Part shown: positions 20,332-22,491 of the stretch, in pieces
Position numbering within the stretch: position 1 is the first letter of the stretch
Layout of the letters: every line of letters begins with the position of its first letter
Assembly: GCA_029782475.1 (NCBI GenBank)
Contig: JARPSM010000022.1
Location: 1-32,374 of the forward strand
Source: Nitrososphaerota archaeon
Lineage (GTDB): Archaea > Thermoproteota > Nitrososphaeria > Nitrososphaerales > Nitrosopumilaceae
DNA length: 32,374 bases
Reading direction: 5' to 3'
Notes under the pieces: generated by a model
Databases searched by the model: none
Seen by the model: only the letters and a program-made list of their open reading frames with translations
What the model was told of the DNA's origin: nothing
Translations under genes and position numbers: made by a program

Positions 20332-21123
20332 TTATTTTTCATAAAGATTTACTGTAACTTTAGTAGTCCATGGTTCTAGATTATCAGGGAAGATTACTAG
20401 TAAACCGCCATCTTTTTCGATATTTTCACAGGTACCACTATAGCTTTGTTTGTTTACACCATAGCAATCAGAATCTGAGTAGTAATCAAATTTTGAATTT
20501 GCAAAGTTTTCACGCTGCTCAAATGATGGAACAAAATATACATTAAAACCCAAATCTTTGTTGTCAGTTTTTACACTATAATCATATGATGTAATATCCT
20601 GTGAAGTACAGATTGGGAAAAATTGTGCATATCCATTTTTAATTTTTAGTTGTTGTTCTGCATTATCATAATTTTTGTTATCAATATCAGGATATACAGA
20701 AACGCTAGGATCTGTACCTAGTTGCTGTCCTTGGAGATATTCTATCTCATGTCTTACAGTATCTACTGCTTTTCTATACAACATTGGTTGCCATTCCTCT
20801 TGGCAATTGCTAAATTCGTGTTTTAATTCAACATATGATTTGTCATTGATTTCATGTAGTTGATTTGTATTGTATTCCTTAGATTCAGCATCAAATACAT
20901 GATTAACATTATTGATTTTTTCTGATTTGTGCCAAGTGTTTGTTACTTCAAAAATAATATTTTTTGAATCACTTTGCCATTCAGATAACAAGTGAACATA
21001 TATCGAATACTTGTTTACAACTTCTTGAGTTTCTGATGCAAAAATCAAATGACCAAAAAACATATTGACAAAAATTATAGAAAATGCAAAAACCGGAATT
21101 ATTGTATAGATTATTTTATTCAT
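20332..21123 (-). CDS. Exported or membrane-anchored protein of unknown function
   Basis: Not recognised. The frame is open further to 21180, but the ATG at 21123 is preferred: it begins a good signal/anchor (MNKIIYTIIPVFAFSIIFVN) and overlaps by 8 bp the stop of the 42-aa zinc-ribbon gene (ATGAATAA), implying coupled translation. The 263-aa product has about 35 hydrophobic residues at its N-terminus and then a soluble domain outside the cell. That domain has several cysteines (in SNCQEEW, PICTSQD, SDCYGV, GTCENI) that could form two disulfides, and a DUF-like beta-rich end (WTTKVTVNLYEK). Function is unknown; the regulator at 21398 may control it. Confidence 0.7.
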   Translation of the reverse strand: MNKIIYTIIPVFAFSIIFVNMFFGHLIFASETQEVVNKYSIYVHLLSEWQSDSKNIIFEVTNTWHKSEKINNVNHVFDAESKEYNTNQLHEINDKSYVELKHEFSNCQEEWQPMLYRKAVDTVRHEIEYLQGQQLGTDPSVSVYPDIDNKNYDNAEQQLKIKNGYAQFFPICTSQDITSYDYSVKTDNKDLGFNVYFVPSFEQRENFANSKFDYYSDSDCYGVNKQSYSGTCENIEKDGGLLVIFPDNLEPWTTKVTVNLYEK

Positions 21124-21244
21124 TTTGACCTCCAAAACAGCTGAAAGATAATCCACAAAAACCACATGAGAATTTATCATCTTTACATTCTATTTTTTCT
21201 GAGCCACACTTGGGACATTCCTTACTTTCGATTAACTCAGTCAT
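21116..21244 (-). CDS. 42-aa zinc-ribbon microprotein
   Basis: A short ORF with four paired cysteines: ECPKCGSEKIEC, then KFSCGFCGLSFSC. The two C-x2-C knuckles (Cys10/Cys13 and Cys27/Cys30) are the standard zinc-ribbon pattern. It reads MTELIES at the start and ends GGQNE. The stop overlaps the ATG of the exported protein downstream (8 bp), so both are translated from one message. A palindrome TTGGTCGGACCAA (21275-21287) sits just upstream of its TATA-like ACATATGTAC, which suggests regulation by the divergent Lrp-GAF protein. It could bind nucleic acid or a protein partner; function unknown. Confidence 0.75.
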   Translation of the reverse strand: MTELIESKECPKCGSEKIECKDDKFSCGFCGLSFSCFGGQNE

Positions 21245-21274
21245 GATATATCATAGTGAGAAATAGTACATATG

Positions 21275-21368
21275 TTGGTCGGACCAATTTTTATTTGCAA
21301 TTGTCCAGATCGGACATGAATAATAGTCTAAATAGAGAAATTTTATTTAAAATTGTCCGAATTGGAAA
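21275..21368. promoter_or_regulatory. Three GGTC/TGTCC palindromes in the divergent Lrp-GAF / zinc-ribbon region
   Basis: Sites: TTGGTC-G-GACCAA (21275-21287, perfect 6-bp arms); TGTCC-AGATC-GGACA (21302-21316, perfect 5-bp arms); TGTCC-GAATT-GGAAA (21354-21368, imperfect). The outer two lie next to the TATA regions of the zinc-ribbon gene (about 21265-21274) and of the Lrp-GAF gene (about 21371-21377), with the third between them. They are probable operators of the Lrp-type regulator. Confidence 0.6.
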
Positions 21369-21397
21369 TTGATATTAGATTGTTCAATTAATAAAAT

Positions 21398-22393
21398 TTG
21401 TTGGTCGACGAAGTAGACAGAATCATCTTATCGCAATTGGGTAAAAATGCAAGAATGTCATCACAAGAATTACAAAAAATAGTTGGTGTTTTAGGACACA
21501 TCATTACGGACAGAGGGATTAGACATCGTTTACAAAAATTGGAAAAAAATAATGTAATATCAGGATATTCTGCAATTTTGAATCCAAATATGTTATCTGA
21601 AAAAATTAATCGAACTATAATTTTGAAATTCAAATTTTCAAAAGATACACCCGAATTAATTAATAGATTATCAAAATATATTATTGATTCTCAGTTCTGC
21701 ATATTTTCTAGTAAATTAAGTGGAGATTATAATTGGATATGTCATTTTGTTTTTGATTCAATTGAACAATATGATCTTGAAACAAGTAATTTTCTTAATA
21801 GATTTGGAGAATTAATTTCAGACTTTCGTTCTTATGAATCAAATACTGTGAAATCCTCTCCGTATATGATTTATGATGATCAAAAAATAAGAGAAAGAAA
21901 AAGAAGAATTTATGAAATTTTAGAATCATTAAAAAAATACGATAACATTAATGAGCGATTTCAAGAAATCGTAGAAAGTATTGTAAAATATTTTGGAGCA
22001 TCATTTGCACGAATTTGGTTTGTAGATAAACAAAGAAAAGAATTGATTCTTAAATTTAGTGCTGGGAAATATACGCAGATTGATGGTAGTTTTTCCAAAG
22101 TATCAATAAATTCATTAAAAATTGGACATATTGCAAAAACCAACAAACCTGTAGTTTCAAACGATGTAGTTAATGACCCCCGAATCAAAATACATGATTG
22201 GGCTAAAAAAGAGAAATTAAAATCATTTGTAGGTTATCCATTATCTTACAAAGGAAAGGCAGTTGCTGTAGTTGCAATGTTTAGTAAGAAAAAAATGAAT
22301 TATCTTGATTTTGAATTATTTGGATTATTCTCTGAGCAGCTTTCAAAGGAATTAACAGGGTTTTTTGAGGCTAAAGACTTTCTTTCAGAATAA
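21398..22393 (+). CDS. Lrp/AsnC-type HTH regulator with C-terminal GAF domain
   Basis: A one-component transcription regulator of 331 aa. Residues 1-60 are an Lrp/AsnC helix-turn-helix (VDEVDRIILSQLGKNARMSS, with IRHRLQKLEKNNVISGY). Residues about 65-150 are a degenerate Lrp-like alpha/beta domain. Residues about 185-325 are a GAF domain (RFQEIVESIVKYFGASFARI, GHIAKTNKPVVSNDVVNDPR, FVGYPLSYKGKAVAVVAMF), which normally binds a small ligand or senses redox or light. The start is TTG at 21398 (a second TTG follows at 21401); the Lrp motif begins at once, so no later start works. Palindromes upstream suggest self-regulation. The ligand is unknown. Confidence 0.85.
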   Translation: MLVDEVDRIILSQLGKNARMSSQELQKIVGVLGHIITDRGIRHRLQKLEKNNVISGYSAILNPNMLSEKINRTIILKFKFSKDTPELINRLSKYIIDSQFCIFSSKLSGDYNWICHFVFDSIEQYDLETSNFLNRFGELISDFRSYESNTVKSSPYMIYDDQKIRERKRRIYEILESLKKYDNINERFQEIVESIVKYFGASFARIWFVDKQRKELILKFSAGKYTQIDGSFSKVSINSLKIGHIAKTNKPVVSNDVVNDPRIKIHDWAKKEKLKSFVGYPLSYKGKAVAVVAMFSKKKMNYLDFELFGLFSEQLSKELTGFFEAKDFLSE

Positions 22394-22404
22394 AATATAA
22401 AAAA

Positions 22405-22491
22405 TTATTGTTTTTGAATATCTGTTCCACAATGAACGCAAAAATAAGATCCGTTAGGAGCCCAATAGTGCTCACAATTAGAATCAGGCAT
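22405..22491 (-). CDS. 28-aa Cys/His microprotein
   Basis: A very short ORF, 11 bp from the 3' end of the Lrp-GAF gene, on the opposite strand. It reads MPDSNCEHYWAPNGSYFCVH and then CGTDIQKQ. The pattern C6-x-H8 ... C18-x-H20-C21 could bind one metal ion in a knuckle. The ATG at 22491 and TAA at 22405 bracket the whole pattern. It resembles the half-zinc-ribbon proteins found in such archaea, but no family can be named. Chance is possible at this length; the Cys/His pattern is the reason to keep it. Confidence 0.5.
   Translation of the reverse strand: MPDSNCEHYWAPNGSYFCVHCGTDIQKQ

Follow-up and report, generated by a model that had tools for sequence, protein, structure and literature searches.

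An Lrp-family regulator with a GAF domain and its predicted operator array at a divergent promoter of ammonia-oxidizing archaea

Among described archaeal regulators, Ss-LrpB of Sulfolobus solfataricus (PMC2995911, PMC4046817) offers a close comparison for the protein presented here, which we call LrpGAF: both combine an Lrp-family helix-turn-helix (HTH) with a RAM domain. In the control region of its own gene, Ss-LrpB binds several regularly spaced 15-bp palindromes of the form 5-5-5, which the predicted LrpGAF sites resemble, and Ss-LrpB regulates its own gene and mainly nearby targets, as we propose for LrpGAF. Helical phasing, DNA wrapping and the dual, positive and negative autoregulation by Ss-LrpB have been reviewed for the archaeal Lrp proteins, for which dimer sites located directly before the promoter elements are described as activator sites (PMC2995911). 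Likewise, Ptr2 of Methanocaldococcus jannaschii, another Lrp-family protein, has sites just upstream of the promoter; it acts through recruitment of TBP and has no GAF domain (PMC2995911), whereas activation by LrpGAF is a proposal only.

Despite these similarities, LrpGAF differs from the described systems in several respects. Ss-LrpB has no GAF domain, and its consensus, TTGCAAAATTTGCAA, is unlike the LrpGAF sites. Described Lrp sites are spaced by two or three helical turns, whereas the two full LrpGAF sites, A and B, lie five to seven turns apart, with a half-site at three, and the LrpGAF array, unlike that of Ss-LrpB, spans a divergent promoter. Where the Ss-LrpB type is defined by three cooperative sites that lie two or three turns apart in the regulator's promoter, we find two full sites and one half-site; by our analysis, the LrpGAF array would work like that of Ss-LrpB, but is not a member of that type. 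Short Lrp-type paralogs from Nitrosopumilaceae (e.g. G021:C1:760300) are about 30% identical to LrpGAF over residues 2-160 and share the HTH and a RAM-like region, but lack the GAF domain. Conversely, the GAF domains of PtsP, NifA-like NLH proteins and free Met-sulfoxide reductase match that of LrpGAF in fold and sequence, but these bacterial domains occur on kinases, on AAA+ proteins or alone, without an Lrp core. None of the open papers that we searched names an Lrp-GAF regulator of ammonia-oxidizing archaea, and within these papers, the HTH-RAM-GAF layout appears to be undescribed.

The locus and the LrpGAF protein

The window, i.e. the whole stretch of DNA analyzed here, comprises 32,374 nucleotides from a Nitrososphaerota archaeon of the Nitrosopumilaceae (contig JARPSM010000022.1). 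Two divergent open reading frames are separated in it by a gap of 153 bp (21245-21397), around which the following features are arranged:

20332..21123, minus strand: exported protein of 263 aa, counted from its ATG at 21123, with GGAGGT just 5' of that codon
21116..21244, minus strand: microprotein, a putative 42-aa zinc ribbon of the CxxC/CxxC type
21267..21275, minus strand: AT-rich conserved block beside half-site C, the probable TATA region for the leaderless facing gene
21275..21287: palindrome TTGGTCGGACCAA of the TTGGTC/GACCAA type, conserved only in the GGA at 21281-21283 (half-site C)
21302..21316: predicted operator site A, TGTCCAGATCGGACA, with arms TGTCC and GGACA around AGATC
21354..21368: predicted operator site B, TGTCCGAATTGGAAA, with arms TGTCC and GGAAA around GAATT, its centre 52 bp from that of A
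21369..21376, plus strand: TTGATATT, the probable LrpGAF TATA box, immediately 3' of the GGAAA arm of site B
21398..22393, plus strand: LrpGAF regulator, 331 aa, TTG start
LrpGAF residues: winged HTH 4-54, RAM-like domain 72-148, linker helix 161-180, GAF domain 184-322

The 3' end of the microprotein gene and the 5' end of the exported-protein gene overlap at ATGAATAA, an arrangement compatible with an operon. The four cysteines of the microprotein are invariant in seven homologs, while all of its Pfam matches remain below the cut-off. The exported protein, which has no Pfam match, had been placed within 21116-22393, but lies mostly outside this span; nor is it rich in cysteine, as had been suggested, with only four such residues among its 263.

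Two further small proteins were observed in this neighbourhood. A second unannotated, conserved zinc-ribbon microprotein (28 aa from the ATG, MPDSNCEHYWAPNGSYFCVHCGTDIQKQ; 22408-22491, minus strand) sits between the LrpGAF and rhodanese genes and has homologs at five other loci (L035, L036, L132, L136, L140). A Lys-rich, repetitive protein of 54-61 aa (MGFLKKLKDTTEKGIEKGTDLGKQ...) is encoded downstream of the exported-protein gene, between it and the ATPase I-subunit gene, at three loci (L031, L033, L037) and is absent from the window.

LrpGAF itself was originally described as an Lrp HTH joined to a GAF sensor. Both parts were borne out, and a RAM domain between them had been missed. The window protein matches GAF_2 (PF13185) with 54.1 bits against a curated cut-off of 28.6, and a GAF domain was found by Pfam in all 32 orthologs compared. 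An AsnC-type HTH is detected in 29 of these 32 at E<=0.01, with the window protein below the Pfam cut-off, and AsnC_trans_reg in four; the NCBIfam Lrp model covers residues 3-135 of the window protein (4e-12, below its equivalog cut-off). In an AlphaFold model (mean pLDDT 79), the segment between HTH and GAF adopts the beta-alpha-beta-beta-alpha-beta layout of RAM domains, and Foldseek finds PDB matches of the model to complete Lrp structures over their whole length (3i4p, 2dbb, 2gqq), as well as to many GAF domains. With its N-terminal AsnC-type winged HTH and the RAM fold, LrpGAF as modeled is a complete Lrp/AsnC-family protein with a diverged RAM domain and a C-terminal GAF sensor. Within the RAM domain, C101 (on a strand; window about 21698-21700) is invariant in 32 of 32 aligned orthologs, and C115/H116 are nearly invariant in a closer set; together, these residues are a possible redox or metal site.

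The predicted operator array and its conservation

As originally predicted, the gap contains three palindromes (21275-21287, 21302-21316 and 21354-21368). Site B is an imperfect dyad (TGTCC/GGAAA), and A and B are the only matches to TKTCC-N5-GGAMA in the whole window. Two GC-containing dyads whose arms are at least 5 long are present in the gap, against 0.044 expected from its dinucleotide shuffles (p 0.009), so that chance alone is only a moderately poor explanation of the palindrome content (p 0.009-0.02). It is for their conservation, rather than for these statistics, that we regard the palindromes as meaningful.

Orthologs of LrpGAF, accepted at full length and E < 1e-40, were found in 60 of 400 Nitrososphaeria genomes, all from the families Nitrosopumilaceae and Nitrososphaeraceae; 13 of 95 genomes of Nitrosopumilus, the genus of the window, carry one. 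No full-length Lrp-GAF protein was found outside Nitrososphaeria among 398 genomes of the phylum. We compared the upstream regions of 47 non-duplicate ortholog loci, for which only the dyad form was taken from the window sequence. Site B is found at 45 of these and site A, in the same place, at 41, the centres being 51-54 bp apart at 31 loci, 62-64 bp at eight and 73 bp at two, that is, five helical turns, or six or seven in some soil lineages. Recognizable sites are absent at two Nitrososphaeraceae orthologs (L081, L083) and at a distant homolog (L093), and site A is missing at four loci besides these two orthologs. Exactly 21 nt before A, half-site C reads GGA at 32 of 41 loci, against a background frequency of 1.9%, and GAA at the other nine; measured from GGA to GGA, the C-A spacing is always 31 bp, or three helical turns, as in the window. 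The two full sites and the half-site have thus persisted in two families, among regulators that have diverged by about 50%. The TTGGTC/GACCAA palindrome, by contrast, was rejected as a third full operator, as only its GGA half is kept across orthologs; we regard TTGGTCGGACCAA as a local variant of half-site C and not as a conserved palindrome.

The operators also covary with the protein. Residues of the second HTH helix (G40 and H43 in the window) track the operator type: GxRHR accompanies TGTCC operators at ten of ten loci and is found at none of the other 37, TVRHR goes with GGCAA arms in four of four cases, and AxRQR occurs mostly with TTTCC operators. On a tree built without the helix columns, GxRHR and TGTCC each change twice, and with so few independent changes a sign test cannot reach significance; we therefore claim none formally. 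Together with the conservation in two families, this covariation strongly supports the view of a sensing regulator flanked by operators, as had been proposed. Of the three palindromes, two are conserved.

Both promoters appear to be contained in the same stretch: B abuts the probable TATA box of LrpGAF, and C adjoins the probable TATA region of the divergent gene. The block after B is conserved as T-N-N-A-T-A-T/A-T-A (TNNATATTA), at the distance where a TATA box would be expected if the LrpGAF mRNA is leaderless. On the other side, 36-38 nt separate half-site C from the facing ATG at 31 of 41 loci, even though the facing genes are unrelated.

We consider it probable that LrpGAF is a local, autoregulating switch of the Lrp family, which binds the array and controls both divergent promoters. 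Dimers of LrpGAF would occupy both dyads and probably also half-site C, all from the same face of the helix, and assemble a single nucleoprotein complex across the whole divergent promoter; we infer this binding and its cooperativity. The complex would control two leaderless promoters at once, that of LrpGAF through B and that of the facing gene through C, and a signal or ligand sensed by the GAF domain, and possibly by the RAM domain too, would alter the oligomeric state or DNA binding. The predicted output in this lineage is the zinc-ribbon microprotein with the exported protein. We assign the sites to LrpGAF because of their conservation, their whole-turn spacing, the covariation of helix and operator, and the restriction of arrays to genomes with LrpGAF described below.

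As for the sign of regulation, effector-dependent activation of the facing gene combined with concentration-dependent autoregulation seems slightly more likely than plain repression, although the matter is close to undecided. We lean to activation since the outer sites lie just upstream of promoter elements, as in archaeal Lrp activators. The alternative is a simple autorepressor, where B and C block TBP/TFB at both promoters until a GAF ligand releases them, and where the facing gene is whatever happens to be de-repressed. This is a serious if somewhat doubtful possibility: Lrp-family proteins commonly repress their own genes (PMC2995911), and B and C do abut the LrpGAF and divergent TATA elements, respectively, but they lie upstream of TATA and start rather than over them, and constrained upstream sites are typical of described archaeal Lrp activators (PMC2995911).

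Second arrays and the genes facing LrpGAF

The array is not used throughout the genome. A scan of the window's own genome found no other A-B array, and across most genomes, single TKTCC-N5-GGAMA sites elsewhere occur near control levels, which speaks against a regulon-wide motif; the remaining ones in G000 lack the central consensus. Of six extra sites that we fetched, four lie inside long open frames (G130:1788017, G128:230062, G128:1783444, G021:372024), one in G104 mostly overlaps such a frame, and one (G130:1302982) belongs to a second array. In the scan of 95 Nitrosopumilus genomes, consensus-like arrays were confined to carriers of LrpGAF. Likewise, 37 genomes of the Nitrosotalea group have one consensus-like array each, which is the LrpGAF locus in those also searched for it.

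In three Nitrosopumilus-type carriers (G021, G130, G407), C, A and B recur in a second complete array that has no LrpGAF gene next to it. This array precedes the gene of a type-2 paralog of the exported protein by some 300 bp. This paralog is about 34% identical to the exported protein of the window and 71-79% among these loci, and a micro-like relic lies between it and the array. In G183, the type-2 paralog occurs at the microprotein locus itself, and the exported genes of two further loci (L037, L109), about 34% identical to that of the window where measured, may be of this kind as well. In the three species, A, B, C and the distance to the ATG are kept while the spacers have diverged, and it is from these arrays before a paralog that we read the exported family as a real output, likely a target of LrpGAF in trans in some relatives. 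That the second arrays are instead decaying remains of duplicated LrpGAF loci seems unlikely to us; the micro-like traces before the type-2 gene, and a B side without an LrpGAF gene or clear TATA, would fit such relics, but not the sites and ATG distance retained despite spacer divergence, nor the intact open reading frame of the paralog.

While the promoter is constant, the facing genes are not. The microprotein directly faces LrpGAF in the window and at four other loci (L031, L033, L037, L109), whereas in two near relatives (L036, L048), three genes, encoding proteins of 120 and about 97 aa and a DUF6789 protein, stand between the two. DUF6789 is the first facing gene at L044, an alpha/beta hydrolase at L032 and L088, an exported protein of 87-90 aa in most Nitrosotalea-like genomes, and a pair of uncharacterized proteins of about 103 and 200 aa in several Nitrososphaeraceae. 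Regulator, zinc ribbon and exported protein, first thought to be a self-contained module, form one only in part of Nitrosopumilus, and adjacency of the gene pair is clade-specific. Nitroreductase, OsmC and pyridoxamine-oxidase-like genes recur as neighbours at some loci; they hint at detoxification, but are no evidence as to the ligand. As a side observation, L036 (JAJFFN010000022.1) is filed under a bacterial Robiginitomaculum MAG; it is Nitrosopumilus-like, with an ATPase subunit 100% identical over 257 aa, and by this evidence a binning contamination.

Could microprotein, exported protein and regulator form a dedicated three-part sensing system, with the zinc ribbon modulating the regulator or its output? 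The microprotein occurs in 12 of 95 Nitrosopumilus genomes, all 12 of which carry LrpGAF, and in order with the exported gene; G032 (L133), which lacks LrpGAF, retains a degraded remnant of the microprotein C-terminus just upstream of the exported gene, suggesting that regulator and microprotein were lost there, and relic-like traces precede the type-2 gene. Physical linkage alone can yield such shared presence, however, and most LrpGAF carriers (Nitrosotalea, Nitrososphaeraceae, G015) have no microprotein. Of 61 relatives, 29 encode the exported protein, many of them in the absence of LrpGAF; there, its gene sits between that of the ATPase I-subunit and a zn2/rhodanese/ammonium-transporter block. 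We judge a three-part system rather improbable. In one genome (G275:C43:9792-11422), LrpGAF is apparently split by a stop and a frame overlap and the microprotein has an internal TGA, either through joint decay or assembly errors.

Finally, it is very improbable that another transcription factor uses the palindromes for a general stress or nutrient regulon in which LrpGAF is only one target: the array is unique in its own genome, it follows the presence of LrpGAF in the 95 genomes, and it covaries with the recognition helix of this protein.

Implications for regulation in ammonia-oxidizing archaea

Gene regulation in ammonia-oxidizing archaea is very poorly understood, and LrpGAF offers an operator and a recognition-helix specificity code, both predicted, as well as a clear set of targets and three natural spacing variants. 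Its HTH-RAM-GAF layout suggests two sensing inputs within one Lrp protein. We further entertain, at not quite even chances, that the bidirectional leaderless promoter and the fixed C-A-B array constitute a portable control cassette, in which the dual-sensor (RAM and GAF) regulator and both promoters persist over long evolutionary times, while the gene at the divergent start codon is exchanged between lineages and can be copied to loci in trans. If true, the exchange of facing genes behind an unchanged promoter would show how archaeal regulators gain new targets.
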